Shown here one piece after another: positions 2,965 through 23,918 of a DNA stretch of 35,824 nt (position 1 is the stretch's first letter; each line of letters begins with the position of its first letter). Made by a program: the position numbers and the translations under genes. The DNA is from Armatimonadota bacterium. Its GTDB lineage: Bacteria > Armatimonadota > JAAZEB01. The stretch covers positions 1 to 35,824 of the forward strand of contig JAAZEB010000295.1 in NCBI GenBank assembly GCA_012512505.1, in the 5' to 3' direction. The notes below the pieces were generated by a model. That model ran no database searches. It worked only from the letters and a program-made list of their open reading frames with translations, and had not been told where the DNA came from.

Positions 2965-2965
2965 T

Positions 2966-5399: not shown

Positions 5400-5895
5400 G
5401 CAGGAGCAGGAGCGTCTTGAGCAGGAGCGGGTGCGTCTACTGAGCGACGGCCTCCTCTTGGACAACGCCGTCGCCTTTGTGGAGTGCTTCGAAGACTGGG
5501 CGCGCATCTCGGACGCGCAGTTGAATGGGTTGCTTAACTTCTCACGCGCCGGCCTTGATGAGCTCCAGAAGTTCGTCAAGCATCAAGCCGATCGCGACTG
5601 GGAGAAGTCCGAAGAGGGCGGTTCGGCGGAAGGGGGCACCGGCGACCGGCACCGAAGCAAAGCGCAGGTACACCAAGAGTTCTACAAGAAGCTGACCACC
5701 CAACTCACGCAGATACGAAGCCTGGCCAAGGATGAGGCTATCATCCCGCCGGGCGCAACCTCCGCTCAGGAAAAGAAGCACCTGAGCGAAATGGGAGCGG
5801 CTCTCGCGGCCGAATTCGTTCAACACCTGGTGGCGGAGATGCTCTATCGGAAAGCACTTGAACGGCGCCCGCGACCGGGTGTCACGGAGGGGTAA
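5383..5895 (+). CDS. Second small helical type III-D protein, candidate small subunit paralog
   Basis: A 170-residue protein with GTG start at 5383, GGAGGG at 5370-5375, overlapping the previous gene by 17 nt. It is highly charged and helical, starting with a Glu/Gln-rich coiled-coil-like segment. AQLNGLLNFSRAGLDELQKF (from about residue 46) matches the QL, N and D-L positions of the upstream protein, and ALAAEFVQHLVAEMLYRKA near the end matches its C-terminal helix. A charged, Gly-rich linker (about residues 71-90) separates the two conserved parts. The function is unknown; a small subunit or small-subunit-like partner is the best guess. Confidence 0.7.
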   Translation: MLTPNEQEQERLEQERVRLLSDGLLLDNAVAFVECFEDWARISDAQLNGLLNFSRAGLDELQKFVKHQADRDWEKSEEGGSAEGGTGDRHRSKAQVHQEFYKKLTTQLTQIRSLAKDEAIIPPGATSAQEKKHLSEMGAALAAEFVQHLVAEMLYRKALERRPRPGVTEG

Positions 5896-5896
5896 C

Positions 5897-6712
5897 GTGG
5901 TTCACCTGGAGCGGCGCTATGTCTTCACCGGCCGCCTGGCCTTCACCACCGCGCTTCACATTGGAGGAGGAACAGGCACCCTCTCGCCATCGGACAGCCC
6001 GGTGGTGCGCGGACCCGACGGGCTCCCCTTCATCCCGGGCAGCAGCTTCAAGGGATCCTTCCGCAGTACTGTGGAGAAGCTGGCCCTCGCTGCCGGCCTC
6101 CGGAGCTGCGGCCTGCTGCCCCAGGAGGGGTGTCCGGGCGCCGAGGGAGACGCGCAAAGAGACCTCCGGCACCAGGCAGAAGAGGAGCGCTGGACCGAGG
6201 CAAAGCTGGTCACGGAACTGGAGCAGAGGCTGTGTGACACCTGCAAGCTGTTCGGGTCAGTCTTCCGGAGCAGCCGGATCTTCTTCGACGACCTCCCTCT
6301 GGTAGAATGGGCCGGCGCGACCCAGATTCGCGATGGCGTGGGTATCGACCGTGATACGGAGAAGGCCCGCGACCGGCTGAAATACGATTTCGAGGTGGTG
6401 CCGCCCGACGCCGCGTTTTCCATGCGCGTCTCGCTCGAAAACCCGTCGACCACCGACCTGGCCCTTGCCTGCATCGGCTTCAGTGAGTTCGTCGGGGGCT
6501 TCGGCAGCCTCGGGGGCAAGCGCTCCCGCGGCTTGGGACGCTGCGAACTCCGCGACCTGCGCGTCTTTGAGCTGGACCTCACGGTTACAGGCTCCGAACG
6601 GGCGGAACGCCTGAAAAACTACCTGTTGGGCCGGACGCTGGAGGAGAAGATGCTTGAGAGGAATGCGGCTGACTTCCTTGACGAGCAGATACGCTCGTTG
6701 ATCGGAGGATGA
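5897..6712 (+). CDS. Csm3-like (Cas7) RAMP subunit
   Basis: A 271-residue protein. I chose the GTG at 5897 because GGAGGGG (5886-5892) lies 4 nt upstream; the frame opens at an ATG at 5858 inside the previous gene. Motifs in order: LHIGGGTGTLSPSDSPVVR with Asp33 in the position of the Csm3 catalytic Asp, FIPGSSFKGSFRS, CDTCKLFGS, the IRDGVGIDRDT segment shared with the next RAMP gene, and a glycine-rich GGFGSLGGKRSRGLGRC. It is one of three RAMPs here that keep an Asp at this site, so a multi-site RNA-cleaving backbone is likely. Confidence 0.88.
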   Translation: MVHLERRYVFTGRLAFTTALHIGGGTGTLSPSDSPVVRGPDGLPFIPGSSFKGSFRSTVEKLALAAGLRSCGLLPQEGCPGAEGDAQRDLRHQAEEERWTEAKLVTELEQRLCDTCKLFGSVFRSSRIFFDDLPLVEWAGATQIRDGVGIDRDTEKARDRLKYDFEVVPPDAAFSMRVSLENPSTTDLALACIGFSEFVGGFGSLGGKRSRGLGRCELRDLRVFELDLTVTGSERAERLKNYLLGRTLEEKMLERNAADFLDEQIRSLIGG

Positions 6713-6715
6713 GCG

Positions 6716-7750
6716 ATGTTGAAGCGTCTCGTGAACGAGCTGCGCTGTACCCTGCTGATCCGTACCGAAGGCCCCGTGCTCGTTAAGTCCGGACACAGCA
6801 GCGTGGCCGGCCCGGACATGACTCCGGTGCGGACCTACCGTGGCGGGCGCTTGGAGGTGTATCTCCCGGGCAGCTCACTGAAGGGTGTCATCCGCAGCCA
6901 CTTGGAGAAGGTGGGGCGCACTCTGAACCCTGGCGCTGTCTGCAACCCCTTCCTGAAGCCAGAGAGTATCGACCCGACAGCGGGCGGCAGCCCTGGCTTC
7001 AGCGAAGTGGCCTGCAGCGAGAAGTTCCAGGCGCGGAAGAATGGCAAGATGAGGACGCAGGGTGGTCGCTGGTGCCGCTCCCAAGAGGATCTGGAAGATA
7101 CTCCTGATACCGTCTACGCAGACTCGTGCCCCGTCTGCCGCCTCTTCGGCTCGAACTCGCACATCGGACGGCTGAGTATCGGCGACGCCTACCTCACCAA
7201 GAGCTACTCCCCGAATGTGGAGCCTGTTGAGTTCCGCGATGGCGTAGGCATCGACCGCATCAGCGGCGGGGCCGCGCCACAGGTGAAGTTCGACCTGCAG
7301 GCGATCTCCCCGGGAGTGGAGTTCGCCGCCGAGGTGCTGGTGCGCAACTTCGAGTGCTGGCAGCTCGGGATGCTCCTGGCCGCCTTCGCCGACCTGCGTG
7401 ACGGGCTCCTCCGTGTCGGCATGGGCCGATCCCGCGGGCTCGGGGCCGTGACCGGCAGCACTGAGAGCCTCTCCATCTCGTTTCTGGGGGCGCTTCCAGG
7501 TCGCCGCTCTGGGGAGGTGTGGGGCCTGGGCAAGTTCCTCGGCGACGGGAGCTACGGAACCGTTGCCGAGGACGTGCTCGTCGTTACCCCAAGCAGCGAG
7601 CGGCAGCACGGCCTGCGCTCGACACTCACCTATGAGGGCGACGCCCTGCAGAAGCTCCAGAATGCCGCGATCGCGCTGTTCGTCGAGCGCCTCCAGACCT
7701 GGGAGGTGCCGGCCGCCATGTGTTGGCCGGGCGACTGGCGGAGGGCATGA
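6716..7750 (+). CDS. Csm3-like (Cas7) RAMP subunit, larger paralog
   Basis: A 344-residue RAMP protein, ATG at 6716 with GGAGGA at 6704-6709. Motifs: VKSGHSSVAGPDMTPVRTY with Asp34 in the likely catalytic position, YLPGSSLKGVIRSHLE, CPVCRLFGS, FRDGVGIDRISGGA, and the glycine-rich VGMGRSRGLGAV. A C-terminal extension of about 95 residues follows the last motif and has no feature I recognise. The FRDGVGIDR block is nearly the same as in the upstream RAMP, which suggests an internal duplication of the operon. Confidence 0.88.
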   Translation: MLKRLVNELRCTLLIRTEGPVLVKSGHSSVAGPDMTPVRTYRGGRLEVYLPGSSLKGVIRSHLEKVGRTLNPGAVCNPFLKPESIDPTAGGSPGFSEVACSEKFQARKNGKMRTQGGRWCRSQEDLEDTPDTVYADSCPVCRLFGSNSHIGRLSIGDAYLTKSYSPNVEPVEFRDGVGIDRISGGAAPQVKFDLQAISPGVEFAAEVLVRNFECWQLGMLLAAFADLRDGLLRVGMGRSRGLGAVTGSTESLSISFLGALPGRRSGEVWGLGKFLGDGSYGTVAEDVLVVTPSSERQHGLRSTLTYEGDALQKLQNAAIALFVERLQTWEVPAAMCWPGDWRRA

Positions 7751-7754
7751 AACC

Positions 7755-8258
7755 ATGAGTGAAGTGCTGCTTGTGGGTCGACAGTCTGCCGTTGGCCGAG
7801 CGCTAGCGTCGCTCCAGGGCGCCGAGGGAGTGGTCATGCTGCTGGAGCGTGTGCCCGAAACCGTACTCAGCGATGCCGAAGCAGCCGCAAGTGTCCTCTG
7901 CGCAACCTACGATCCGAACACCGACTGGCAAGCCTGGGCACGGGGCCGCGTCTTCTGCAGCACCTGGGAGCTACGGTGGGAGGAGGGCCGGGCGAGCTAT
8001 CTGGGCGCCCCGACGCCCCTGCCGGGCTTCGAAGAAGGGCCGTCGTTGGACGGGTGCTCGCGCCGTGAACACAGCTACTACCTGTGGGGCTCGCGCGACC
8101 GCAAGGACCCTCGGCGGTTCACGGCCCTGCAGATCCCACGGGTGCTCTCCTACCCCGTGGACACCGGACGCCAGGTGAAGCTGCACGTCGCCGAGTGGGT
8201 GGACCACGACGGGCTGCTGGTGGCCTGGCGCTGCCTGCGCCTGGAGGGAGTGGCATGA
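7755..8258 (+). CDS. csx19: Csx19, type III-D CRISPR-associated protein (TIGR03984-like)
   Basis: A 167-residue protein starting at ATG 7755, 4 nt after the previous stop. The C-terminal half carries the family pattern: HSYYLWGSR near residue 105, then a segment of the type RFTALQIPRVLSYPV, then a closing strand (LLVAWRCLRLEG). Csx19 is found with csx10 in III-D loci; its biochemical role is not well defined and it is probably a structural part of the effector complex. Its stop overlaps the next start (ATGA at 8255-8258), which points to coupled translation. Confidence 0.8.
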   Translation: MSEVLLVGRQSAVGRALASLQGAEGVVMLLERVPETVLSDAEAAASVLCATYDPNTDWQAWARGRVFCSTWELRWEEGRASYLGAPTPLPGFEEGPSLDGCSRREHSYYLWGSRDRKDPRRFTALQIPRVLSYPVDTGRQVKLHVAEWVDHDGLLVAWRCLRLEGVA

Positions 8259-9349
8259 ACGTCTACAACTTCGTGCCGATCGACAAGGACCACCCGCCCC
8301 AGCGCGCGGCCATCCCACGGCACGACCGCTACGAGGGCCTGGCGGGGCAGATCCAATGCCAGCTCAAGGCCGAGCGGCCGCTCTTCCTGCCCGGCATTGA
8401 CGGCTACGGCCGGCCGCTTGTCGGACGGGGCGAGCTTCGGCTCTTCTCGCGCAGTGAAGCTCGCCGGTCTAAGGACAACCCGGATGGGCTCTTCATCGCC
8501 GGCAGTTCCCTCAAGGGGCTCCTCCGCAGCATCGTTGAGGCGACTGCTCCGGGGTGCTTCCAGCACCTCCAGCACAACCGAGAGCGTGGTGGGACGGTGC
8601 CCGAGGCCTTCCACGCCTGCCCGCCCCGCGGGCGAGACCCGGTAGCCTGCCCTGCCTGCCGTCTCTTCGGGTTCATCGGCCAGGGCACCGATGCTCCCCT
8701 CCGGCGCGGCTGCGTGGAGTGCCAGGACGCAGTCTGCGTGGAATGCACCGGCTACGAGGCAATTTACACCGCGATCCTCGGCAACCCCAAGCAGCGCCAC
8801 TCGGCCTTCTATGCTCCAGACGGCCGGCTGGCCGGCCGGAAGTTCTACTACCACCACCGGGAGGACCAACTTCTGACCGAGAGCGGTTGGCGCATCAGCA
8901 ATCGGGGCGAGCGGCAAAATGCTCACATCGAGCCGGTTCGCGCCGGGACACGTTTCGCCTTCACTGTCGACTTCGCCAACGTGTCTGAGGAGGACCTGGA
9001 GGCGCTTCTCTTCGCGCTGGTCCTGGAAGAGAACCTGCGGCACAAGTTCGGCTACGCCAAGCCGTGCGGCCTGGGCAGCGTGCAGATCACCGTCGAGCGC
9101 CTGGTGGTGCTGCGGAACCCGGTACGGCGCTACGTCGGGAGCGGCGCCGAGGAAGAGTGGGCCGGAGCGGCTGCGGCCGAGGAAGCGCGCCGGCGTGCGG
9201 CTGCCTTTCAAGAGCGTATCTTGCCGTGCGTGCTGGAAAAGCTGCAGGAGATCTGGCGGTGGCCGCCAGCCGCCGGGGTGGACTACCGATACCCCTCGCA
9301 GGCGTGGTTTGCGGAGAACCCCCGCGCGCCGCTCTCCGCCACGCCATAA
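8255..9349 (+). CDS. TIGR03986-type RAMP protein (Cas7 group)
   Basis: A 364-residue protein starting in the ATGA overlap with csx19. The opening NVYNFVPIDKDHPP and the GQIQCQLKAERPLFLPG strand are typical of the TIGR03986 RAMP family. Further motifs: FIAGSSLKGLLRSIVE, a Cys-rich insert with CPACRLFGF followed by CVECQDAVCVEC (probable zinc sites), GNPKQRHSAFYAPDGR, RKFYYHHRE, and a glycine-containing KFGYAKPCGLGSVQ near the C-terminus. I see no Asp in the usual Csm3 catalytic place, so it is more likely structural. A 32-nt gap separates it from the CARF gene. Confidence 0.85.
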   Translation: MNVYNFVPIDKDHPPQRAAIPRHDRYEGLAGQIQCQLKAERPLFLPGIDGYGRPLVGRGELRLFSRSEARRSKDNPDGLFIAGSSLKGLLRSIVEATAPGCFQHLQHNRERGGTVPEAFHACPPRGRDPVACPACRLFGFIGQGTDAPLRRGCVECQDAVCVECTGYEAIYTAILGNPKQRHSAFYAPDGRLAGRKFYYHHREDQLLTESGWRISNRGERQNAHIEPVRAGTRFAFTVDFANVSEEDLEALLFALVLEENLRHKFGYAKPCGLGSVQITVERLVVLRNPVRRYVGSGAEEEWAGAAAAEEARRRAAAFQERILPCVLEKLQEIWRWPPAAGVDYRYPSQAWFAENPRAPLSATP

Positions 9350-9381
9350 ACCAGCCCGATCCTACGGAAGGAGAGTGGGCG

Positions 9382-10634
9382 ATGAGTAGCTCACTCAAGG
9401 TAATCTCGTTTCTTGGTGCTGGGGCCTACGAGCGTGCCACGTACCGGCACCCGGCAGAGCCCGGGACGTGCGAGACGGAGTTCGTCCAGGAGGCGGTGGC
9501 ATGCTTCTACCAACCCGATACCTTTTACGTTCTGCTGACTGAGAAGGCAGCCTCGACCAACTGGCCCCGCCTGAACGACCGGCTGGCGGGTCTAACCCAG
9601 GTGGTTCCGGTGTCGGTGCCGGACGGGCGGACGCCTGAGGAGATATGGACCATCTTCGAGCGGCTCACCGACTGCCTGACCGACGAGGACGAGGTGATCT
9701 TCGACATCACCCACGCGTTTCGCTCGCTGCCTGTGCTCTCGCTCATCGCGGTGATGTACCTGCGCGTGGTCCACCACGTGCGCATCCTCGGCCTGGTATA
9801 TGGCGCCTGGGAGGCGCGCGATGAGGCCACCGGTGAGGCGCCAATCTTCGACTTGCTGCCGCTCGTCAGCCTGCTCGATTGGACCACGGCCACGGACAAG
9901 TTCCTGAAGTCGGGCGACTCGCGGGAGATGGCCGCGCTTCTCACCGACATCCACACCTCGCGCTACCGAGACGGCGGGGAAGATGACGACCGGCCCCAAC
10001 AGCTTCGCCCGCTGGCGGAGAGCTTGTCCCGCCTCTCGGAAGCCCTGGCTCTGGCCCGCCCCGTGGAGGTAGGCGACACTGCCGCCCGGGCAGCAAACCT
10101 CCTGCACGCCGCCGAACCCGAAGCCCGCCGTTGGGCGCAGCCCTTCGCCGTGCTTCTGGATAAGATTCGCTGCGCCTACAGTGCACTGGCACCCCTGGAC
10201 GCCAAAGACGCGCGACAGGCCCTGGCAGCACAGTGGCGGTTGATCGAATGGTACCTGGACCGGGGGCAGGTGGTGCAGGCGGCAATGCTCGCGCGCGAGT
10301 GGGTGGTCTCGGTGGTTGGGTGGCGGCTGCGCCACCGGTGGCAGGAGCGCGATGCCCGCGACGCGATCGAGCGATCGCTGGGAGCCTGGGCACAGGAGTG
10401 CATGCGCCGCCCTTACAACCCCCAGGAGCCCCCCCCGACGAGTTGCGGGCCGAGATCCCCTTTGCCGGCGATCTGTGGAACCGCCTCGGCGAGGTGCGAA
10501 ACCAGATCGCCCACTGCGGCATGGGAGCCGAGAACATGCCCTCCCGCAGCATCTTCCGGTGCGTCCAGAATCTGCGCGAGCTGCTGCGAGACCTGGCCCA
10601 TGCGTTCGGCCTCGATACCGAGGGCGCAGCATGA
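9382..10634 (+). CDS. CARF-HEPN ribonuclease, TM1812/Csx1-type, with a frame break at a C8 tract
   Basis: ATG 9382 has GGAAGGAGAG upstream. The N-terminus is a CARF domain that would bind cyclic oligoadenylate: VISFLGAGAYERATY at residues 7-21 and FDITHAFRSLPVLSL at 107-121, the TM1812-family signature. After about 349 residues the frame meets C8 (10429-10436) and runs on to an unrelated tail and a stop at 10710. In the -1 frame the protein continues sensibly (PPDELRAEIPFAGDLWNRL) and contains RNQIAH (R codon 10497, H codon 10512), the R-x4-H active site of a HEPN RNase, ending at 10634 in an ATGA overlap with the next start. One extra C would give a 417-residue intact enzyme. Causes to consider are sequencing error, slipped-strand variation, or -1 slippage on C CCC CCC. 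Confidence 0.85.
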
Positions 10635-11032
10635 TCCTGGTGAACTTCGCCCACCCGCTGACCAGCGCACAGATCGCCCGGTTGGAGGAGTGGACCGGAC
10701 AACCCGTTGAGCGCGTGGTGGGCACCCAGCCGCAGTTCGACCAGGAGCGCTCCTTCGCCGACCGTCTCGCGCTCTCACCGGTGAACCTGAGCGTTCTGGA
10801 CGCCGGCGACTGCGAGCCGGGCCCGGAACACCCTCGTGGTGGTCGTGGCGGTGCGCTGCGATATCCCCCACCGCCGCACGGAGGCCGCGAAGGCGATGGA
10901 GGACTTCGGGCAGCGGGCGCCGAAGGGCGTATTCAAACGCCGCCTGGACGCGCGCCCGCCCAGCCGGAGGGGGGAAGGGTGCGCTCGCTCCTCGAAAAGA
11001 GGCAACGACCGTCCCTATGTAGAGGGGATTGA
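10631..11032 (+). pseudogene. csx15 remnant: true N-terminus joined to out-of-register sequence
   Basis: The ATG overlaps the CARF-HEPN stop. The first 47 or so residues (VNFAHPLTSAQIARLEEWTG, then VERVVGTQPQFDQERSFADRL) resemble the start of Csx15, a small type III accessory protein of about 120 residues. From about 10770 the frame yields a Pro/Gly/Arg-rich tail with no family character, passes over a cas2-like sequence in another frame and ends inside the first CRISPR repeat. I read this as a deletion or rearrangement that removed the rest of csx15. Whether the short product is functional is unknown. Confidence 0.55.
10827..10961 (+). pseudogene. cas2 remnant (N-terminal half only)
   Basis: In the frame starting NTLVVVVAVRCDIPHRRTEA, and continuing KAMEDFGQRAPKGVFKRRLD, the sequence follows the Cas2 pattern of a hydrophobic first strand, a D-I-P turn with R-rich helix, an L/M-E-D-F/Y-G helix end and a V-F-x-x-x-L-D strand. 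The residues after LDA are not Cas2-like and the frame runs into the array, so about half of the normal ~90 residues is missing. In-frame stops lie upstream and there is no ATG; a GTG at 10836 is the only start. No cas1 was found anywhere in the window. Confidence 0.6.
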
Positions 11033-11260
11033 AACGTGTCCGGAATCACCACGTCCGTGCGGTAGCGGTCCGTTGGTCGCAACGACCGTCCCTATGTAGA
11101 GGGGATTGAAACGTTCTCAGGAAGGGTTCCGCTTGCCCATATGCGCGAGTCGCAACGACCGCCCCTATGTAGAGGGGTTTGAAACGCGGCATCCTCGGTA
11201 TCGCGGTAGTCGATGATCTCGAAGTTGAAACGACCGTCCCTATGAAGAGGGGTTTGCGAG
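10999..11260 (+). CRISPR. Short, decaying CRISPR array: 4 repeats of 37 nt, 3 spacers
   Basis: Repeats at 10999-11035, 11076-11112, 11149-11185 and 11224-11260. The second is taken as consensus: GTCGCAACGACCGTCCC, TATGTAGAGGGG, ATTGAAAC in order. Spacers are 40 nt (11036-11075), 36 nt (11113-11148) and 38 nt (11186-11223). The conserved ATTGAAAC 3' end gives the 8-nt crRNA tag and sets transcription to the + strand, the same as the cas genes. Repeat 1 differs at bases 2-3; repeat 3 has T to C and A to T changes, the first of which extends the CCCT/AGGG stem; repeat 4 has lost the GAAAC end, as expected of the leader-distal terminus. No separate leader is visible because the cas2 remnant abuts repeat 1. 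Confidence 0.93.
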
Positions 11261-11461
11261 GCTGATCTCGCCCTCGGCAGCCACGAGCCTGCCCCTGCCA
11301 CCCGGCGCGCTTTCCTCCAAGCGCGCATCCCGCCTCTCTTTCTCCCCCCATAAGCGCGTTTTCACGACTGGTTGCCCTGGAACGTTCTGTAAGTATGAGT
11401 GTAAGGAACGTCCCGGGCGCCAGAGGGCGCTTTCGACCGCGAGCAGGAGGAGAGAGAGGCG
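11261..11461. other. Intergenic region between the array and the acylation operon
   Basis: About 200 bp without a gene. It ends in AGGAGG (11445-11450) and GAGAGAGG, which serve the downstream fkbH-like gene. I see no strong promoter hexamers or terminator with a T-tract, so the exact start of the next operon is unresolved. Confidence 0.4.
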
Positions 11462-13402
11462 GTGGCGGCTCACGCATCCGTGCTGCTGATGGCTTTGGAG
11501 GATTTCCTGAGCGCGCCCGAGGCGCAGCGGCCAGACGCGCGCGCCAGGCTGTTGGCCGCGCTGCGCGCTGCCCTCGCCGACGGCTGCTGGGAAGAAGCCG
11601 CGCTCACCCTGCGACGCGCCCTGGTGCCCACGCTCGACTACACCACCGCGCAGTCGCTTTACCGCGTCTACCGCCAGCTTCGGCCTCAGCTTCCCGATCC
11701 TGGCGTGCCCCTGAAGCTGGCGCTTCTGAGCAACGTCACCAGCGACCCGCTCGCCCAGTTCCTCGAGCTGTTCCTTTTCGCCAACGGTGTGGCGGTCGAG
11801 CTGTACCGGTCTGACTACGGTCTCCTCCGGCAGGAGATCCTCGACCCGGACTCCGGCCTCTACGCGTTCCGGCCGCGTATCCTCTTCCTGGCCACGACCT
11901 GGCGCGACCTTAGCGAGGCGCCACCGGTCTCCGCCGACGCGGCGACGGTCCAGGCGCGGGTGGAGGCGGAAGTGGCCGGCTGGGCGCAGTTGTGGCGGCT
12001 GGCTCACGAGCGGCTTGGCTGCCAGGTAGTGCAGAACAACTTCGATGCCCCACCCTGGCGCGCGCTCGCCAACCACGAGACGCGCCATCCCGCCGGGTTC
12101 GGGCGCTTCGTCGCGGCGGTGAACGCCTCCCTTGCCGATGCCGCCCCACCCTACGTCACCCTCCACGACCTGGACCACCTGGCGTCCACCGCCGGACGAT
12201 GGGCCTGGCATGAGGCACGCTTCTTCTACCACGCCAAGCTGCCGTGCGCGCCGGAGTGCCTGGTGGATTACGCGCACAGCGCCGCCTCGGTGATCGCCGC
12301 CCACCTGGGGCTGGCGCGCAAGTGCCTGGTGCTGGATCTGGACAACACCCTCTGGGGAGGCGTGATTGGCGACGACGGCCTGGGCGGGATTCGTTTGGGG
12401 CAGGGAGAGGCGGAGGCGGAGGCATTCGTGGCCTTCCAGCACTACGTGAAGGCGCTGCGCCAGCGCGGCGTCCTCCTGGCCGTGTGCAGCAAGAACGAGG
12501 AGGCCACCGCGCGCGCGGTGTTCGAGCAACACCCGGCGATGGTGCTGCGCCTGGACGACATCGCTTGCTTCGTTGCCAACTGGCAGGACAAGGCCACCAA
12601 CCTGCGCCAGATCGCCCGGCAGCTCAACATCGGGCTCAACTCGCTGGTCTTCGTCGACGACAACCCGGCCGAGCGCGCGCTCGTCCGCCAGCTCGCGCCG
12701 GAGGTGGCGGTGCCCGAGCTGCCGGCCGACCCGAGCGGCTACATCCGCGCCCTGGAGTGTCACCGCTTCTTCCAGACCACCTCGCTGGCCGGCGAGGACC
12801 TGCGGCGCACTGAGTTCTACCGCGCCAACGCCGCCCGCGAGCAGGCCGAGGCCAGCGCCACCAACGTGGCGGAGTTTCTCCAGTCGCTGCGGATGGTGGC
12901 CCGCGTGGAGCCGGTTCACGAGGCCACCCTGGAGCGAACGGCACAGCTCATCGCCCGCTCGAACCAGTTCAACCTGACCACCCGCCGCTACTCGGCCGCC
13001 GAGGTGCTGGCGATGGCGCGGAGCCCGCACTGGATTACCCGCACCATCTCCCTAACCGACCGCTTCGGCGACAACGGCTTGATCAGCGTGCTGCTGGCCT
13101 GCATCGAGGGCGACACCCTGCGGCTAGACACCTGGCTGATGAGCTGCCGGGTGCTCAAACGCGGCGTCGAGGAGCTGCTGCTCAACCACATTCAGGCCCT
13201 GGCGCGGGCGCGGGGGCTGCGGCGAATCGTTGGGGAGTACATTCCGACAGCCAAGAACGCCATGGTCCGGGAGCATTACGCCCGGCTCGGTTTCTGCCTC
13301 ATCGAGACGAATGGCGCGGGCCATGCCTGGTGGGAACTGGCGGTGACGCCAGACTGGACACCGCGCACGACTTACATCCGGGAGGTCCACGGGGATGGAT
13401 GA
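11462..13402 (+). CDS. FkbH-type HAD-superfamily glyceryl-ACP loading enzyme
   Basis: A 646-residue protein; GTG 11462 is chosen, with in-frame ATG 11489 possible. Order: an N-terminal FkbH-associated domain (KLALLSNVTSDPL...), a HAD-IIIC phosphatase core with DLDNTLWGG at residues 292-300 (D292 the nucleophile, D294 the acid/base), AVCSKNEE and FVDDNPAERA, then a GNAT-like C-terminal domain with TWLMSCRVLKRGVEELLL (Cys562) and AKNAMVREHYARLGF. FkbH relatives dephosphorylate 1,3-bisphosphoglycerate and place a D-glyceryl group on an ACP. The ACP gene overlaps its end by 8 nt, as expected for that partner. None of the oxidases that turn glyceryl-ACP into methoxymalonyl-ACP is nearby, so the glyceryl thioester may be the end product. 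It takes the place of DltA in a Dlt-like operon. Confidence 0.88.
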   Translation: MAAHASVLLMALEDFLSAPEAQRPDARARLLAALRAALADGCWEEAALTLRRALVPTLDYTTAQSLYRVYRQLRPQLPDPGVPLKLALLSNVTSDPLAQFLELFLFANGVAVELYRSDYGLLRQEILDPDSGLYAFRPRILFLATTWRDLSEAPPVSADAATVQARVEAEVAGWAQLWRLAHERLGCQVVQNNFDAPPWRALANHETRHPAGFGRFVAAVNASLADAAPPYVTLHDLDHLASTAGRWAWHEARFFYHAKLPCAPECLVDYAHSAASVIAAHLGLARKCLVLDLDNTLWGGVIGDDGLGGIRLGQGEAEAEAFVAFQHYVKALRQRGVLLAVCSKNEEATARAVFEQHPAMVLRLDDIACFVANWQDKATNLRQIARQLNIGLNSLVFVDDNPAERALVRQLAPEVAVPELPADPSGYIRALECHRFFQTTSLAGEDLRRTEFYRANAAREQAEASATNVAEFLQSLRMVARVEPVHEATLERTAQLIARSNQFNLTTRRYSAAEVLAMARSPHWITRTISLTDRFGDNGLISVLLACIEGDTLRLDTWLMSCRVLKRGVEELLLNHIQALARARGLRRIVGEYIPTAKNAMVREHYARLGFCLIETNGAGHAWWELAVTPDWTPRTTYIREVHGDG

Positions 13403-13649
13403 GCTTCGCACGCAGGTGCAGGAGGTCTTCCGCGAGGTGTTTGCCGATCCGGAGATCCGCCTACACGACCAGATGACGGCCGACGACATTGACGGCTGGG
13501 ATTCGCTGATGCACATCAACCTGATTGTCGCCTTGGAAAAGCACTTCGGCATCCGCATGGCGACCGCCGAGATCGCCCGCCTCAAGGAGGACGGCCAGAA
13601 CATCGGCACGCTGCTCCAGCTCGTCGCCGGCAAGCTGCCGCGCGCTTAG
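13395..13649 (+). CDS. Acyl carrier protein
   Basis: An 84-residue ACP, ATG at 13395 with GGAGG at 13381-13385. The GWDSLMHINL segment contains Ser37, the 4'-phosphopantetheine site, ahead of a typical helix II and the ALEKHFGIRM strand-helix turn. It is acidic and overlaps fkbH, so it is very likely the substrate carrier for that enzyme. Downstream genes are membrane acyl-transfer proteins, so it probably works as DltC does, handing the acyl group to the MBOAT protein from the cytoplasmic side. No polyketide or fatty-acid genes are near, which argues against a role in those pathways. Confidence 0.93.
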   Translation: MDELRTQVQEVFREVFADPEIRLHDQMTADDIDGWDSLMHINLIVALEKHFGIRMATAEIARLKEDGQNIGTLLQLVAGKLPRA

Positions 13650-13663
13650 GCGGGAGGCCCCTG

Positions 13664-14920
13664 ATGACGGTCGCCAGTCTGCAGTTCGTTGCCGCGCTGC
13701 TTCTGGCGTCGGTGCTGTTCCCGCTGCTACCGACCCCAAGAGCGCGGCAGGGGGCGCTGTTCCTGGGCAACTGCGTGTTCCTCGGCAGCCTGGTGCCGAA
13801 CGCGGCCACCTGGGCCGCGCTGGCCGCGTTCCTCGCCTCTGGCTATGCCGCCGCCCGGATCCTGGAGCGCCGCCCGGTTCGCGCCTTGCTTGCCGCTTAC
13901 GTGGCGGGGATCGTCGCCGTCTTCGTCCTGCTGAAGCGGTACGCCTTCCTGGAGCAGGTGGTGCCGCCGGCGATGCTGGACCACCCGATCACAATCGTCG
14001 GCCTGAGCTACATGCTGTTCCGACAGATCCATTACGTCGTCGACTCGATGCAGGGCCAGATCCCTACGCCGTCGCTCTGGGGCTACCTCAACTACCAGAT
14101 GAACCTGTTTGGGCTGCTGGCGGGGCCAATCCAGCGCTATCAGGAGTTCCAGGCCTCCTGGGACAAACTGGTGACCGTCGCGACCGACCAGCACGACCTA
14201 CTGAAGCGCTATCTGCGCGTCTTCTGGGGCGTGGTGAAGATCGTCGGCATCGCCGCGGCCTTCTCCTTTGCCTACCAGAAGCTGTTCGCCCGGCTGGAGT
14301 CGCTGCACGCGGCGTCCGATACGCCTGGCCTGCTCACCGCGCTGGTGCTCTTCCTCGGGGTGTTCTACCTTTACCCGCTATACATGTACTTCAACTTCTC
14401 CGGCTACTGCGACATCGTCATCGGCGGCGCCGCCCTGGTGGGGCTGCGGCTGCCTGAGAACTTCGACCGCCCCTACCTGTCGCGCAGCGTGATCGACTTC
14501 TGGACGCGCTGGCACCGCACGCTCGGCTTCTGGATTCGCGACTACCTCTTCATGCCGATGTACAAGGCGGTTGCCGAGCGCAATCCCCGGGTGGCGCCTT
14601 CGGTGGCGTTCGGCTGCTACTTCGTCGCCTTCGCACTGGCCGGGATCTGGCACGGCACCACCTCGAACTTCCTCGTCTTCGGCGCCATCAACGGCCTGGG
14701 CGCCTCGGCAGCCAAGCTGGGCGAGCAGTATCTGATCCGGAAGCGCGGACGCGCCGGCCTGCGGCAGTACCTGCAGTCGGGCCGGATCCGCCTGGTCTCG
14801 ATCTGGGCCACCGCCAACTTCTTCTGCGTCTCCATGCTCTTCTTCCCTCACGAGCTGGAGCGCTGCCTGATCCCGCTGCGGGTCCTTTACGCGGCGCTGG
14901 AGGCCGCCATTCGCGGCTGA
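13664..14920 (+). CDS. MBOAT-family membrane O-acyltransferase (DltB/AlgI-like)
   Basis: A 418-residue polytopic membrane protein, ATG at 13664 with GGGAGG at 13652-13657. It has about ten hydrophobic segments. MBOAT features: NLFGLLAGPIQRYQEF in the middle, MYFNFSGYCDIVIGGAALVG, SVIDFWTRWHRTLGFWIRDY, and AGIWHGTT with the catalytic His330. DltB and AlgI relatives move an acyl group from a cytoplasmic donor (ACP-bound in DltB) across the membrane for transfer to a surface polymer. The ACP next door and the DltX-like and DltD-like genes downstream make the DltB-type route more likely than acetylation from acetyl-CoA. Confidence 0.92.
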   Translation: MTVASLQFVAALLLASVLFPLLPTPRARQGALFLGNCVFLGSLVPNAATWAALAAFLASGYAAARILERRPVRALLAAYVAGIVAVFVLLKRYAFLEQVVPPAMLDHPITIVGLSYMLFRQIHYVVDSMQGQIPTPSLWGYLNYQMNLFGLLAGPIQRYQEFQASWDKLVTVATDQHDLLKRYLRVFWGVVKIVGIAAAFSFAYQKLFARLESLHAASDTPGLLTALVLFLGVFYLYPLYMYFNFSGYCDIVIGGAALVGLRLPENFDRPYLSRSVIDFWTRWHRTLGFWIRDYLFMPMYKAVAERNPRVAPSVAFGCYFVAFALAGIWHGTTSNFLVFGAINGLGASAAKLGEQYLIRKRGRAGLRQYLQSGRIRLVSIWATANFFCVSMLFFPHELERCLIPLRVLYAALEAAIRG

Positions 14921-14933
14921 GGGGAGTGAACCG

Positions 14934-15080
14934 ATGACTAAACTCGCGAAGTGGGCCGATGCGCTGGGGCGGCGTCACCCCCGGCTGATGCTTCTGGCCG
15001 TTGCCGCCATGGCGGGCGTGGCGACCCTGCTGCTGCTGGCAAGCGGCCACGGCACGATCGTTCTCTACCAGGCATTCTAA
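14934..15080 (+). CDS. 48-residue single-span membrane protein, DltX-like candidate acyl relay
   Basis: ATG 14934 with GGGGAG at 14921-14926 and TAA at 15078-15080, lying exactly in the gap between the MBOAT and SGNH genes. The protein has a basic N-terminus (K3, K6, R13, R14, R17), one hydrophobic span at about residues 18-37, and a short outside tail ending TIVLYQAF with Tyr45 three residues from the end. DltX, the small protein of Dlt operons, has the same size, topology and C-terminal aromatic motif (of the FIYNEF type), and its Tyr is reported to carry D-Ala between DltB and DltD. The match in position, length and tail is what I see; the relay role is inferred. It is short enough to be missed by routine annotation. 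Confidence 0.75.
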   Translation: MTKLAKWADALGRRHPRLMLLAVAAMAGVATLLLLASGHGTIVLYQAF

Positions 15081-15081
15081 G

Positions 15082-16182
15082 ATGATGAACTCAGCAACAC
15101 CCACCGCGGAGCTTGGGCTGCGGCGCGCGCAGGTGCGCCTCTCCTTGATCCTGCTGACCGTGATGGCCGCCACCATGCTGGCGGTGGGCGTGCTATCGCG
15201 CAGCCGGTGGCTGGAGGCGCGCCTGGTCGCCCTGGAGGTGGACCGCTTCCGCCGCAACATCGAGCACTGCATGAACCGCGGCCTCTACCTAGAGTTTGAG
15301 GACCGGCTGCTGCTGCGGGAGATCCCCCGGGCAGACTACTCCCAGGGCGGGGTGTTCTTCCTGGGCACCTCGGCACTGAAATGGGCGCTGCAGACCTGGG
15401 AGATCACGCCGGATCAGCGCCCCTACGTGGCCGACTACGGCATCGGCGCCTCCGACCACCGGCAGCAACTGCAGTTCATCCGCTTCCTGGCCGAGCAGCG
15501 CGGCTTCCTGCAGGCCGGCGCGCGGACGCACCTGGTGCTGGGTGCCTATTGGACGATGGGGATGCGGGCCGACCCGGAGAGCTTCTTCGGCCCGCTGTGG
15601 GAGCGCTACGGCCTCTACTCCTACGACCCGGACCGGGGGATCCAGAGTGCCGGGGGGCCGCGCTGGCTCGCGTGGCTTCGCGAGGAGCGGGCCCGCACCG
15701 CGTCGTTCCTGGCCGGCCTGGCGAACCGTACCGCCCGGCTGGCCGCCACCAGCGCCGGGCTGCGGCTGACACCCACCGAACGGATCGACGCCGCCAAGGC
15801 CCGGGAACGCGCCCGGCGCCAACGGATTGAGGGGTGGCAGGAGCCGCTGGCAGAGCAGATGGCCGCCCTGGAAAGCCAGATCCGCTACGTTCGCCGCCAC
15901 CAGGCACAGGTGACCGTGGTGCTCGTACCTACCCGTGCCGCCTACCGTGACCAACCCCTCCCCCGAGTCTACCGGCAGGAAGTGACCCGGCTGTGCCAGC
16001 GGCTGGCCGTGCCGCTGGTGGATCTGTCGGAGCTGCTGCGTGAGGACGAGTTCTGGGACATGAACCACTCCAACTACGCCGGGATACGCAAGACGCACAC
16101 CGTGCTGATGGCCATGGCCAGCGAGCACCTGCGCCAGGTTGGCCTGTGGCCCAAGCGGTGGTCACGCTACGCCGCGCGCTGA
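15082..16182 (+). CDS. Membrane-anchored SGNH-like acyltransferase/esterase (DltD/AlgX-like)
   Basis: A 366-residue protein; ATG 15082 or 15085, directly after the small gene's stop with no strong RBS of its own, so translation is probably coupled. One N-terminal membrane span (about residues 18-38) would place the body outside the membrane. SGNH motifs: VFFLGTSALKWAL with Ser97 in the block I position, an ADYGIGASDHRQQLQF segment, VTVVLVPTRAAYR, and WDMNHSNYAGIRKT with Asp326 and His329 as the D-x-x-H block. An Arg/Ala-rich helical insert lies at about 210-260. DltD and AlgX-type proteins of this fold finish transfer of acyl groups to surface polymers, the role I infer here. A fold-only hydrolase is the alternative. 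Confidence 0.8.
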   Translation: MMNSATPTAELGLRRAQVRLSLILLTVMAATMLAVGVLSRSRWLEARLVALEVDRFRRNIEHCMNRGLYLEFEDRLLLREIPRADYSQGGVFFLGTSALKWALQTWEITPDQRPYVADYGIGASDHRQQLQFIRFLAEQRGFLQAGARTHLVLGAYWTMGMRADPESFFGPLWERYGLYSYDPDRGIQSAGGPRWLAWLREERARTASFLAGLANRTARLAATSAGLRLTPTERIDAAKARERARRQRIEGWQEPLAEQMAALESQIRYVRRHQAQVTVVLVPTRAAYRDQPLPRVYRQEVTRLCQRLAVPLVDLSELLREDEFWDMNHSNYAGIRKTHTVLMAMASEHLRQVGLWPKRWSRYAAR

Positions 16183-16207: not shown

Positions 16208-16397
16208 CTTTGCCTGCTCCTCGCCGCGTCGCCTCGGCCTGCCTAGCACGGTGGCGCCAGGCGTGCGGCTGCCGAGCCTGCGCCTGCCGGTAGCCCCCGG
16301 GGCAGGAACGGCGGCGGGCGCCGCCGAAACCAGCAGCACACCGGCCCCATGCGACAACGCGCGGGAGACCGCGCTACTGTGGAGGCAGGAGGTAGCG

Positions 16398-16679
16398 ATG
16401 GCACTGCTCACGCCTGAGGAGATTCGCGCGCGCTTGACGGCGCTCCCCGACTGGCACCTGGCGGCCGATGGCATCCGCAAGACCTACTCCTTCCCCGACT
16501 TCCGGAAGGCGATCAACTTCGTCAACGCCGTCGCCGACATCGCGGAGGCCCGCCAGCACCACCCGGAGATCGCTATTCGCTACAACAAGGTGACGCTGAC
16601 ATCCCTCTCTCACGACGTCGGCCAGGTCACCGAGCGCGACCTGGAGTTGGCCGAGCAGCTCGAGCAGATTCCGCTCTGA
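16398..16679 (+). CDS. Pterin-4a-carbinolamine dehydratase (PhhB/DCoH)
   Basis: A 93-residue protein, ATG at 16398 with AGGAGG at 16387-16392. It holds the full family signature: ARQHHPEIAIRYNKVTLTSL with the paired His residues, then the SHDVGQVTERD segment with the third His and the Asp. The enzyme dehydrates 4a-hydroxytetrahydrobiopterin so that the pterin cofactor of aromatic amino acid hydroxylases can be recycled; some bacterial copies act in pterin metabolism more widely. No hydroxylase gene lies in the window. The length is normal for the family. It precedes a sugar isomerase-like gene by 12 nt. Confidence 0.92.
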   Translation: MALLTPEEIRARLTALPDWHLAADGIRKTYSFPDFRKAINFVNAVADIAEARQHHPEIAIRYNKVTLTSLSHDVGQVTERDLELAEQLEQIPL

Positions 16680-16691
16680 GGAAGGTACACC

Positions 16692-17456
16692 ATGACAAAC
16701 ATTGTCGCGTGTAACGTGTACAGCTACGGGCGTTACGGCGCCGCGGCCTACGAGCACCTGCGCTCGATCGGCCTCACCAACATCGAGATCTCCGTGCCCC
16801 CGGCAGAGCGGCTGCCCGTGCTGCAGGATGAACTCGACCGCTATGGCCTGAAGGTGACGACCGTGATGGGGTCGTGCGACCTGGCGAACCCGGAGTGCGC
16901 CGAGGCGCTGAAGCCCCAGGCGGCCACCGCCGGCGCGCTGGGCGCGAAGATCATCTTCCTTAGCGTGCGGGCTGGCGACCAGCCGAAGGAAGTCGCCTAC
17001 GACCGCCTGCGCGCCGTGGGGGACGTCATGGCCGCCGCCGGCCTGACCGCCGCCCTGGAGACGCACCCGGATCTGATCCACAACGGCGACCAGGCGCTGG
17101 AGACGATGCGCGGCGTGGACCACCCGAACGTGCGCGTCAACTTCGACACGGGGAACATCTACTACTACAACGAGGGCACCACCGCCGTCGCTGAGCTGCG
17201 CAAGATCGCCCCCTACGTGGCGAGCGTTCACCTGAAGGACACCTACGGCGGCTTCAAGACGCACCACTTCCCCACCCTTGGCCAGGGCGTCGTGGACTAC
17301 CCGGAGATCTTCCGCATCTTGAACGAGCACGGCATGTACGGCCCCTTCACCATGGAGCTGGAAGGGATCGCCGGCGAGGAACTGACCGAAGAGCAGCAGA
17401 AGGCCCGGGTAGCAGACTCCCTGGCTTACCTGAAGCGCATTGGCGTCGTGGGCTGA
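16692..17456 (+). CDS. Sugar phosphate isomerase/epimerase-like TIM-barrel protein
   Basis: A 254-residue cytoplasmic protein of the AP-endonuclease-2 / xylose-isomerase-like TIM barrel family, ATG at 16692 with GAGGAAGG upstream. Likely metal ligands sit at the usual strand ends: Glu123 (ALETHPD), Asp152 (NFDTGN), His180 (ASVHLKD) and Glu222 (TMELEG). These proteins isomerise or epimerise sugars or inositols, but the substrate cannot be read from the sequence. The neighbouring secreted glycosidase-like genes on the same strand suggest a place in sugar catabolism. Confidence 0.85.
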   Translation: MTNIVACNVYSYGRYGAAAYEHLRSIGLTNIEISVPPAERLPVLQDELDRYGLKVTTVMGSCDLANPECAEALKPQAATAGALGAKIIFLSVRAGDQPKEVAYDRLRAVGDVMAAAGLTAALETHPDLIHNGDQALETMRGVDHPNVRVNFDTGNIYYYNEGTTAVAELRKIAPYVASVHLKDTYGGFKTHHFPTLGQGVVDYPEIFRILNEHGMYGPFTMELEGIAGEELTEEQQKARVADSLAYLKRIGVVG

Positions 17457-17499
17457 GCCAGCCAACGACCCCGGGCAACCCAGTGAGAATGAAAGACTG

Positions 17500-20178
17500 A
17501 TGAGGAATCCGAAACCAATGACTCGATGGACCGCGCACGCGCTGGTGGCCGTGTGCTGCTGCCTGGTGCTCGCGGCCGGGGCGCCGGCGAGCACGGCCGC
17601 GGAAACGGGGCCCCAGATGCTGGATCTGATCACCGATGGCAGCGCCTGGTCCGGCGCGCCCGACCACCCCACCACGCAGCAGACGGTGACGGTGCGCGAC
17701 GGAACCCTGGTCACCGACATCACCGGCAACGGCGACAAGGAAGATTACCCCAAGCTCACCCGCATCTACGACGCACCCCAAGACTGGCGGCGCTTCGCCC
17801 GCATCCGCACCCGGGTGCGCGTCACCTGCGACGACCCGGAGGTGCGCCAGAAGAACCTGACGATTGTGCTGCTGGACGAGCACAACCGTCGCGCCGACTT
17901 GCCTGACCACCCGATGACGCAGCAGTGCTTCGGGCACACCGTGCCCGTCGGGCGCTGGGTGGAGCTGAAGAACTGGCTCGATGGCATCGACCGCTCCGCC
18001 ATCCGGCAGGTCGACCTCTACCTCTACGAGGTGCCCCCGGAGAAGGCACACCACTACCGCTGGGAGATCGCCTCGCTGCAGCTTGAAAGCCTGGAGGGTG
18101 CCTTCGATAGCGAGATCTGGCCGGGCGAGGCGCTGAAGGGGGTCCAGAGCGCGCCGGCGGCGCGGCTGGCCACCCGTGACGGCCTCCGCCTCGCCCTGGG
18201 CCAGCAGGGCGACATCTCTCTCCTCACCGTCGGCGGCAAGCGTGTGGGAGCCTCGGACCCAGCGGCGCCTTCCGGCCTGCTGGTGCGAGACGTGGCCGCC
18301 AATGGCGCGCCGGTGGTGGTGGGCGGCAAGATCCGTCGCCAGGGCTCCGCCGTCCGGCAGACGGCCCGCCTCGACGCGCTGGACCTGGCCGTCGATGCCA
18401 CCTATCGCGTCGTGGGAAACGCTTTGGAGATCCGCGGCACCGTGGCCGATCTGCGCGGGGCCGACCGCGCGGTGACCGTCTACTTCGCCGTGCCGGTGGC
18501 CGAAGCACCATGGGAGTGGTGGGACAGCGCCGCCGTGGCGCGCACGGCGCCGGGGCAAGGGGGCGAACTCGCCTACTACGAGTCGGGCATGGAGTACGGC
18601 CACGGCGGCCGGCACTCGAAGTACCCGCTCGGCGCGATCACCTGGCCCGGGCAGGCTGGCCTCAGCCTGGCGATCCGCATGGACGAGCCGGTGGTCCACC
18701 GCATCTTCTACAACCCGCGCCTGCGCCTCTTCACGGTGGCGCTCGACTTCGGCCTGGTGCCCATGCCGCGCCTGCGCGGCCGGCCCCTCTCGGAGGCGCC
18801 CTTCCGGGTGCTGCTCTACCGGCACGACCCCGCCTGGGGTTTCCGCTCGGCCCTGCAGCGTTACTACGACTTGTTCCCCCAGTTCTTCACCCGGCGCGTT
18901 CAGCGCGAGGGCGGCTGGTATGTCTGGGGTAACGTGAAGGATACCCCCGGCGCCGTGGAGGCCGGCTTCGGCTTCCACTGGGGGCCGGCCAACGAGGAGG
19001 CGGTGCGCTGGGATAACGAGAACGGCCTCCTGGCGGTCTACTACATCGAGGCGGAGTTCCATCAGCAGACGATGGGCGACTACGACCGCGCGCCCACCGT
19101 CGACGAAGTGATGGATCGCCTGCGCAAGCTGGCGGATGCCGACCCGGAAACCACGGCGGCGGTGGAGAAGCTGAGCTACGGCTACGCGCGCTCCGGGCGG
19201 GAGTTCCTCCAGGCCGTCTCGCAGGCCACCTTTGCCTCGGCCTTCCACGACAGCAACGGCCAGGCGCCCTGCATGATCGCCCAAATGCCCTGGATTGGGG
19301 AGAGCAACTGGGGCGCCATCCTGCCCTGCAACCTCGACCCGGACATCCCCCAGGGCAAGGGATGGTTCAACTTCCAGTTCATGCTGCGCCAGATGCTCGC
19401 CAACTGGGGCAGCAAGAACGCCCGCTACGACGGCATCGCCCTCGACTCGTTTGGCGGCTACGGCCAACTCGGCCGTGCCAGCTATCGCCGGGAGCATTTC
19501 CCTTACGCCGACTTCCCGCTTAGCTTCTCAGCGGTGGACCAAAAGCCGGTGCAGGTGGCCGCTTTCGCCTCTCTGGAGTGGCTGCGGGCGCTGGCCCGCG
19601 AAGTTCACGGGCGCCGGAAGGTGCTGATGGCCAACTGCTCCTGGAATATCACCCCGGGCTGGCTTACCTTTGCCGCGCCCTACCTCGACATCTTCGGCGC
19701 CGAGGCCGCCCGCTTCGTGGACCCGGACTTCATCCGCGCCATCGCCTACCGCAAGCCCTGCACCGACCTGCCCTACGAGCCGCAGCCGGAGTGGGATGCC
19801 TGCTCGCGCTTGCTGCACGGCATCTATCAGGGGCATGGCCACGACATGGCGGTGATGCGCCGCTGCATCGGCCCGCTGCGCCAACTCTCCGCGGCCGGCT
19901 GGCAGCCGGTCAGCGGTGCCCGCGTGCTGCCGGCTACCTTGCGCCTGGAGCGCTACGGCAGCGGCAAGCAGGTGCTGCTGGCGCTGCACAATCCCGATGA
20001 CGCCGACCGGCAGGCGGAGGTGAACCTGGTGCCAAGCACGCTCGGCTGGCCGGCCAACGCCTCGGTGAAGGCTACCCTGATCTTCCCCACCGACGGGCGC
20101 ACCGTGCAAGTGAGTGGCCGCAACCTCTCTCTTCCACTCGCCGGCCGCGAGACGGTGGTGCTCTCGGTGACCCGCTAG
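17500..20178 (+). CDS. Large secreted glycoside-hydrolase-like protein of unknown specificity
   Basis: About 892 residues from ATG 17500; ATG 17518 is as likely and gives a cleaner signal peptide (MTRWTAHALVAVCCCLVLAA, cleavage near AASTAA-like sites). The N-terminal part (about 40-230) looks like a beta-sandwich. A middle beta-rich part follows, then a barrel-like region with WWDSAA, HRIFYNPRL, GGWYVWGNVKD, VRWDNENGLLAVYYIEAEFH, and RYDGIALDSFGGYG, the last resembling the nucleophile strand of retaining alpha-glycosidases. The C-terminus has QVLLALHNPDDADR and a small beta domain, as in many clan GH-D/GH-A-like enzymes. I do not recognise a numbered GH family. It lies 43 nt after the isomerase gene. 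Confidence 0.7.
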   Translation: MRNPKPMTRWTAHALVAVCCCLVLAAGAPASTAAETGPQMLDLITDGSAWSGAPDHPTTQQTVTVRDGTLVTDITGNGDKEDYPKLTRIYDAPQDWRRFARIRTRVRVTCDDPEVRQKNLTIVLLDEHNRRADLPDHPMTQQCFGHTVPVGRWVELKNWLDGIDRSAIRQVDLYLYEVPPEKAHHYRWEIASLQLESLEGAFDSEIWPGEALKGVQSAPAARLATRDGLRLALGQQGDISLLTVGGKRVGASDPAAPSGLLVRDVAANGAPVVVGGKIRRQGSAVRQTARLDALDLAVDATYRVVGNALEIRGTVADLRGADRAVTVYFAVPVAEAPWEWWDSAAVARTAPGQGGELAYYESGMEYGHGGRHSKYPLGAITWPGQAGLSLAIRMDEPVVHRIFYNPRLRLFTVALDFGLVPMPRLRGRPLSEAPFRVLLYRHDPAWGFRSALQRYYDLFPQFFTRRVQREGGWYVWGNVKDTPGAVEAGFGFHWGPANEEAVRWDNENGLLAVYYIEAEFHQQTMGDYDRAPTVDEVMDRLRKLADADPETTAAVEKLSYGYARSGREFLQAVSQATFASAFHDSNGQAPCMIAQMPWIGESNWGAILPCNLDPDIPQGKGWFNFQFMLRQMLANWGSKNARYDGIALDSFGGYGQLGRASYRREHFPYADFPLSFSAVDQKPVQVAAFASLEWLRALAREVHGRRKVLMANCSWNITPGWLTFAAPYLDIFGAEAARFVDPDFIRAIAYRKPCTDLPYEPQPEWDACSRLLHGIYQGHGHDMAVMRRCIGPLRQLSAAGWQPVSGARVLPATLRLERYGSGKQVLLALHNPDDADRQAEVNLVPSTLGWPANASVKATLIFPTDGRTVQVSGRNLSLPLAGRETVVLSVTR

Positions 20179-20222
20179 GCCGCTGCCGGCGCCCGGCCGG
20201 CCCGGCACGGAGGATGAGGACC

Positions 20223-23713: not shown

Positions 23714-23737
23714 GGCATTCGCCGGCCGCGCCGGGCA

Positions 23738-23819
23738 CCCATCGGCGTCAGGAGACGCCTACGGCGGGGCGCGTCTCCTGCGGTGGGGCCGGCGGGACGC
23801 CGGCGATCCGACCTGTCGG
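23738..23819. repeat. Interspersed GC-rich repeat, copy A
   Basis: Starts CCCATCGGCGTC and ends GACGCCGGCGATCCGACC followed by TGTCGG. It closely matches copy B at 35684-35765 over its whole 82 nt with scattered changes. GCCGGC-GGGAC-GCCGGC forms a 6-bp hairpin inside. It lies in the gap between the nitrilase and GH51 genes. A second partial stretch (GTGGAGACGCCTCC) follows it. Confidence 0.7.
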
Positions 23820-23918
23820 CGGTGGAGACGCCTCCGATGGTGGGGGTAGGCCAGGCGAACGGCGACGCCCCTGGGCTTGCGCGCCGATTGGGGCGGCGCG
23901 CTTGCTGGAGTTCATGGT

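Follow-up and report, generated by a model that had tools for sequence, protein, structure and literature searches.

We analyzed a 35,824-nt stretch of an Armatimonadota genome (contig JAAZEB010000295.1 of assembly GCA_012512505.1; hereafter the window), in which positions 11462-16182 of the + strand hold a compact operon of five genes encoding an FkbH-family protein, an acyl carrier protein (ACP), a membrane-bound O-acyltransferase (MBOAT), a single-span microprotein and an SGNH protein, all with intact reading frames and active-site residues. We consider it probable that these genes specify a carrier-protein-fed acyl relay of the Dlt type, which would put a three-carbon hydroxyacid, most likely D-glycerate, on an extracytoplasmic glycan. 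The architecture, that is, a DltB-like MBOAT, a DltX-like shuttle, an SGNH protein, a carrier and FkbH at the place of DltA, is well supported by sequence comparison; the glyceryl group, its donor and the acceptor polymer are proposed by analogy with related systems. An earlier note on this DNA, made from the letters alone, had assigned Dlt-like roles to these five adjacent genes, and open reading frames (ORFs), family scores, conserved residues and the fold of the SGNH protein all bear this assignment out.

A Dlt-like gene set with an FkbH protein at the place of DltA

The product of the first gene scored 297.1 bits against the FkbH family profile (cut-off 146.65), which places it in the family, and matched the solved structure of a Bacteroides relative (3slr, 1.4e-65). 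Its N-terminal SGNH-like FkbH_N domain, HAD-IIIC phosphatase domain and C-terminal acyltransferase region keep the HAD DLDNT motif, the Lys, the DD pair and the C-terminal SCR cysteine, and D292, D294, T296, K344, D399, D400 and Cys562 are invariant across seven relatives. The operon has no AMP-ligase ORF, and this protein occupies the position of DltA, as had been proposed. Members of the FkbH family transfer glyceryl from 1,3-bisphosphoglycerate to an ACP (PMC7489565), and family resemblance suggests that the window protein likewise loads glyceryl onto its neighbor. The latter scored 23.8 against PF00550 (cut-off 20.8), resembled the ACPs that partner FkbH proteins (5e-34) and matched DltC weakly, with 22.9 bits against a DltC cut-off of 68; by these scores it is an ACP of the FkbH-partner type, not a DltC.

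The MBOAT scored 56.5 against PF03062 (cut-off 27), and DltB structures were its sole sequence matches in the PDB (1e-32). Alignment revealed both catalytic histidines to be invariant with DltB, yet the score against the DltB profile TIGR04091 (174.6 bits) fell far under the cut-off of 375, and the protein lacks a C-terminal Tyr motif. It is, as judged from these comparisons, a relative of DltB and not a DltB. The donor side was assessed at the segment where DltC docks on helix HC of DltB via Met302, Val305, Ile306 and Met309 (PMC11035591). Among MBOATs without linkage to FkbH, 17 of 18 have a Gly-Gly pair (PLGGNR) at the positions of Val305-Ile306; the pair is present in just 4/47 FkbH-linked MBOATs and in none of three DltB proteins. 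The window MBOAT, in which the residue matching Met302 is likewise Met and PMYK follows, is devoid of this Pro-Leu-Gly-Gly segment, typical of acetyl-CoA-type MBOATs. The missing Gly-Gly fits a carrier-protein donor for the FkbH-linked enzymes.

The fourth gene encodes the 48-aa single-span protein with a C-terminal Tyr motif that the earlier note had singled out (MTKLAKWADALGRRHPRLMLLAVAAMAGVATLLLLASGHGTIVLYQAF). It is preceded by a putative ribosome site (GAGGGGAGTGAACCG), ends in TAA and found no protein-family match in profile searches. Nevertheless, its one span and C-terminal shuttle-like Tyr make it DltX-like: the Dlt relay runs through DltX, for which a C-terminal FXYXXF motif has been published (PMC12148441), and the two Gram-positive DltX sequences compared here end in FIYNEF. 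The SGNH protein reached PF13472 at a sub-threshold level (E 0.002), with its Gly-Thr-Ser97 and Asp314-x-x-His317 aligning with the DltD blocks. An AlphaFold model built from six sequences (pLDDT 63) retrieved GDSL/SGNH enzymes in Foldseek, including PatB and, at rank 37, DltD, whereas phmmer of the protein against the PDB found no DltD. The model thus supports an SGNH fold but not a specific DltD origin.

The genes are tightly packed. FkbH, with AGGAGG 5' of its GTG start, overlaps the ACP gene by 8 nt, and the remaining intergenic gaps measure 14, 13 and 1 nt, the last two separating the microprotein gene from the MBOAT gene and from the SGNH ATG, respectively. The mechanical ORF list had wrongly begun the SGNH gene at TTG 15001; we rejected this start because the resulting ORF runs through the microprotein gene.

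Table 1. Genes of the operon, with positions in the window and diagnostic traits
Feature	Position	Strand	Traits
FkbH-family glyceryl loader (predicted), 646 aa	11462-13402	+	GTG start; TIGR01686; PDB 3slr match
Acyl carrier protein, 84 aa	13395-13649	+	PF00550; phosphopantetheine site GWD-Ser37-L
DltB-like MBOAT, 418 aa	13664-14920	+	PF03062; PDB matches DltB 6bug/8jem; H284, H330
DltX-like single-span microprotein, 48 aa	14934-15080	+	C-terminal VLYQAF, Tyr45; no family match
SGNH transferase (predicted), 366 aa	15082-16182	+	ATG start; N-terminal membrane anchor; Ser97/Asp314/His317

The Dlt pathway D-alanylates teichoic acids in Gram-positive bacteria. The window operon shares with it (DltX-DltA-DltB-DltC-DltD) the carrier-protein donor, the DltB-like MBOAT with both histidines, a separate one-span YxxF microprotein, the SGNH protein and the arrangement in one operon. 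It differs in having FkbH instead of an adenylating ligase, an FkbH-partner ACP, an MBOAT far from DltB by score and an SGNH protein that is not DltD by sequence, as well as in its host, whose LPS-type outer membrane makes a teichoic acid acceptor unexpected. We therefore rejected its classification as a Dlt system, since neither DltA nor bona fide DltC and DltB are recognizable. With the PatA-PatB, AlgI/AlgJ/AlgX and WssH-type acetylation systems it has in common the MBOAT-SGNH relay and the C-terminal acyl-Tyr motif (FxYxxF in those systems), which these enzymes carry fused, as do most FkbH-linked MBOATs. However, these acetylation systems use acetyl-CoA as donor, and MBOAT-SGNH pathways other than Dlt have been described as having neither a carrier protein nor a DltX-like microprotein (PMC12148441, 2025), whereas the window encodes both and lacks Pro-Leu-Gly-Gly. 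The presence of a carrier protein, the lack of the Gly-Gly segment and the MBOAT phylogeny described below all disfavor plain acetylation of the PatAB/AlgI kind. Collectively, the catalytic histidines, the shuttle motif on the microprotein (with F changed to V at position 1) and the SGNH partner indicate that the operon is, by sequence, a variant member of the MBOAT-SGNH relay class, distinguished by its FkbH loader.

Recurrence of the set and of its Tyr microprotein across phyla

An FkbH alignment was scanned over 84,980 species genomes, and the counts of MBOATs and ketosynthases near FkbH rest on the best 80 FkbH loci, the nearest and not all. An MBOAT lies within 6 kb of FkbH in 45 of these 80, while about 35 hold FkbH-ACP without an MBOAT. 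The FkbH-ACP-MBOAT-SGNH set is widespread, usually with the Tyr motif fused to the MBOAT: most FkbH-linked MBOATs are long (460-590 aa) and carry FxYxxF at their own C-terminus, which was exact in 37 and a Tyr variant in 2 of the 39 full-length proteins inspected. The latter include three encoded by plasmid-borne FkbH-ACP-MBOAT-SGNH sets of alphaproteobacteria (Tistrella, a Rhodobacteraceae and S. meliloti), with ends FIYAGF, FIYFNF and FLYQGF. The S. meliloti set (L028, plasmid p_2 of strain RCAM1750; FLYQGF) is located near rkpR and capsule export genes, and we read the partner after its MBOAT as SGNH-like, although its annotation is that of a TonB-dependent receptor. The closest relative of the window operon is L045 (Planctomycetota HyVt-455), with 53% identity in FkbH, 54% in ACP and 43% in MBOAT, the contig ending within the MBOAT gene; L198 was considered as its continuation and rejected, as it carries an ordinary acetyl-CoA-type MBOAT. 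FkbH homologues, some with an ACP, were also evident on IMG/VR viral contigs (L030-L036) and in a human faecal phage record (H81, MT835480.1); no MBOAT relative was found on the viral contigs.

The window falls in a minority of FkbH-linked MBOAT loci, the split class, in which the MBOAT is short (390-418 aa) and lacks the motif, and an xxYxxF end is found instead on a separate one-span microprotein. Besides the window, this class comprises L048 (Myxococcaceae), L049 (Elusimicrobia), L052 (Planctomycetota), L053 (Ca. Magnetobacteriaceae, Nitrospirota) and L082 (Verrucomicrobia), and a search of three phyla with a profile of split-class MBOATs further yielded L178, L179, L182 and L185 (Planctomycetota) and L191, from the phylum of the window. 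All 11 short-MBOAT FkbH loci encode FkbH, an FkbH-type ACP, the short MBOAT and the Tyr microprotein, to which an SGNH ORF adjoins, as judged by eye in several of them. The microproteins of L082, L179 and L182 fell outside the residue or length filters of the first micro-ORF scan and were identified by inspection. YxxF ends were found in only 46 of 11,820 small ORFs (30-65 aa) of the fetched loci, so that a Tyr microprotein in 11 out of 11 is not explained by chance. The neighborhood search that the earlier note had called for thus recovered the set in 11 loci, the window included, of at least six phyla: that of the host and at least five further named ones (Planctomycetota, Myxococcota, Elusimicrobiota, Nitrospirota and Verrucomicrobiota). 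Its expectation that homologues keep the small protein holds for these loci, whereas in most relatives the motif is fused to a long MBOAT. In L053, the gene order is identical to that of the window and the set is located among glycan genes.

Short MBOATs with Tyr microproteins also occur without FkbH in outer-membrane-type phyla (L186, L192, L193, L194 and L196, with ends FIYIDF, NVYARF, FFYQRF, FIYVDF and FVYARF; L196 has an AMP-ligase nearby), which makes DltX-like microproteins wider than FkbH systems. In the Planctomycetota locus L181, the MBOAT is broken by a stop or frameshift and followed by an intact microprotein (DFVYTGF), with no FkbH within 17 kb.

In an MBOAT tree of 68 rows, the window clusters with L049, L052, L053 and five fused FkbH-linked MBOATs (support 98/98); this cluster adjoins DltB and L082 in a group of 13 rows (99/97), apart from the remaining 55, which are mostly PatA/AlgI-like. 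L048 is placed elsewhere. Split members being scattered, the split form is not one clade, and the co-occurrence of both shuttle forms, split and fused, within a single clade indicates that the Tyr motif shifts from one protein to the other, microprotein or MBOAT, in evolution.

Proposed pathway and competing explanations

In the pathway that we propose, FkbH would take 3-phosphoglyceryl from 1,3-bisphosphoglycerate, its HAD domain would remove the phosphate, and the glyceryl would go to the Ser37-phosphopantetheine of the ACP, as family knowledge suggests. The loaded ACP would then dock on the MBOAT at its horizontal cytoplasmic helix, like DltC on DltB, and the MBOAT would carry the acyl group across the membrane to the microprotein, where, by analogy with DltX, Tyr45 would receive it. 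The microprotein would in turn hand it to Ser97 of the SGNH protein for esterification of the final acceptor. The host genome (5.66 Mb in 396 contigs), whose single MBOAT and single FkbH are both those of the operon, yielded LpxC and five Omp85 matches, indicative of an LPS-type outer membrane; the acceptor is therefore more likely an exopolysaccharide, O-antigen or other glycan than a teichoic acid.

Several observations weigh against this proposal. All known FkbH glyceryl chemistry comes from other family members, so that substrate and direction in the window are assigned by analogy. No polysaccharide or glycan genes flank the operon. Val replaces the first Phe of FxYxxF in the microprotein end VLYQAF, sequence comparison does not identify the SGNH protein as a DltD, confidence in its model is modest, and 2 of the 11 split-class loci have SGNH partners with an altered triad: that of L053 (13268-14206) reads GDCS, with Cys at the Ser nucleophile position, and that of L049 (5206-6279) lacks the His of Asp-x-x-His. 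The residues of DltB that contact DltC are mostly not conserved in the window MBOAT. Finally, the Gly-Gly correlation is not statistically established, because the trait follows the tree with three independent pairs and no significance.

An unlikely but serious alternative keeps the relay and changes its cargo, either because ACP-bound glyceryl is processed further, for example by a MaoC-like dehydratase and a short-chain dehydrogenase/reductase (SDR) that would dehydrate it to pyruvyl and reduce it to lactyl, or because this FkbH clade loads another phosphoryl-activated acid. Indeed, 19 of 48 FkbH-MBOAT loci, among them the split-class L049, L052 and L053, encode a MaoC-like protein no more than 4 kb from FkbH, often together with an SDR (further cases beside FkbH-ACP being L026, L098, L101, L104 and L111). 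The acyl group may be modified in such loci, and on-carrier conversion to pyruvyl or lactyl is suggested for part of the class. In family scans of the window ORFs, however, the operon had neither an oxidase or methyltransferase nor a MaoC or SDR as a neighbor, in agreement with the absence of oxidizing and methylating enzymes that had been noted earlier, and most split-class loci (e.g. L178, L185, L191) are also without MaoC. This explanation is thus live for the class and weaker for the window; the pathway interpretation of the earlier note stands as to architecture, while its unmodified glyceryl may not extend to every relative. We regard as rather improbable that the operon serves two unrelated jobs, with FkbH-ACP supplying glyceryl to a cytoplasmic acceptor (a sugar nucleotide or metabolite) and MBOAT-SGNH acetylating a polymer from acetyl-CoA as PatAB does. 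The numerous FkbH-ACP loci without MBOAT, the pairing of some FkbH-ACP with cytoplasmic-looking acyltransferases (e.g. WcbI-like in L027) and the glyceric acid derivatives known on flagellin sugars (PMC3068675) would accommodate it. Against it speak the frequency of MBOATs near FkbH, the tight translational spacing across the five genes, the clustering of FkbH-linked MBOATs, without Pro-Leu-Gly-Gly, with DltB, and the joint presence of carrier and microprotein, otherwise a hallmark of Dlt (PMC12148441).

Two further explanations have very little in their favor. FkbH is best known from polyketide clusters, which, along with the type I polyketide synthase adjoining a plasmid relative in Methylosinus (L029), might suggest that FkbH serves as loader in making a polyketide or tetronate-like metabolite, which the MBOAT and SGNH proteins would then tailor. 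We judge this very improbable and rejected a polyketide context, since no ketosynthase was detected near any of the 80 nearest FkbH (with one ketosynthase query, hence a lower bound), contrary to what the earlier note had named as fatal to its idea, and no polyketide synthase domain in the window ORFs scanned. Unlike the glyceryl-ACP units of the FK520 and tetromadurin pathways, moreover, the window has no ketosynthase, dehydrogenases or O-methyltransferase, and FkbH-ACP is followed by a membrane acyl-export machine. Least credible of all is a non-functional or chance cluster, such as a decaying, horizontally acquired island. The operon is patchy, as two genomes from the family of the host gave no match to it, but its reading frames are unbroken and its active-site residues complete, further phyla harbor the same set, and counterpart microproteins change less at amino-acid than at silent sites: among the Planctomycetota L052, L178 and L181, nonsynonymous (pN) and synonymous (pS) differences amounted to 0.30-0.36 and 0.74-0.88, the latter near saturation, for a pN/pS of ~0.4.

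Surroundings of the operon and implications for surface glycans

Upstream of the operon, the window carries a Type III CRISPR-Cas locus (325-11262) with Cas6, Cas10/Cmr2 and several RAMP proteins. It closes ~200 bp before FkbH with a short array, in which the last of the four 36-nt repeats is degenerate. Downstream (16374-25394) are genes for a pterin-4a-carbinolamine dehydratase, a xylose-isomerase-like TIM barrel, a large protein without assignment, a laminin-G protein, a nitrilase-type hydrolase and an alpha-L-arabinofuranosidase, with no obvious tie to the relay.

Glycerate on surface or secreted glycans has precedents in the gellan and welan gums and, as di-O-methyl-glyceric acid, in the Campylobacter flagellin glycan, and the passages of these papers on the three materials name no glyceryl-transferring enzyme (PMC9104527, PMC3068675). 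The glycerate of gellan is the L form, whereas the D form would be expected from 1,3-bisphosphoglycerate; furthermore, a Sphingomonas plasmid MBOAT region showed no FkbH, so that gellan glycerylation could not be connected to this operon type. No description of FkbH-fed MBOAT systems was found among open-licence papers, earlier mention elsewhere being possible. The claim that no system of this make-up had been described therefore stands within that literature, although the arrangement is not unique to the window, given its widespread relatives.

We lean mildly toward a broader reading, in which these loci represent a widespread, undescribed envelope modification: FkbH would draw 1,3-bisphosphoglycerate from glycolysis, and glyceryl-ACP would feed an MBOAT, Tyr shuttle (microprotein or fused) and SGNH relay that leaves glycerate esters on surface glycans in many phyla. 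Carrier donors and DltX-like microproteins would then not be a specialty of Gram-positive D-alanylation, and the loci constitute a broad exception, in outer-membrane bacteria, to the published statement on carrier and microprotein (PMC12148441). If so, the glycerate ester would join acetate and D-alanine as relay cargo, and candidate genes would be at hand for glycerate-bearing polysaccharides. Should the chemistry hold, acylation of surface glycans could be tied directly to glycolytic flux.

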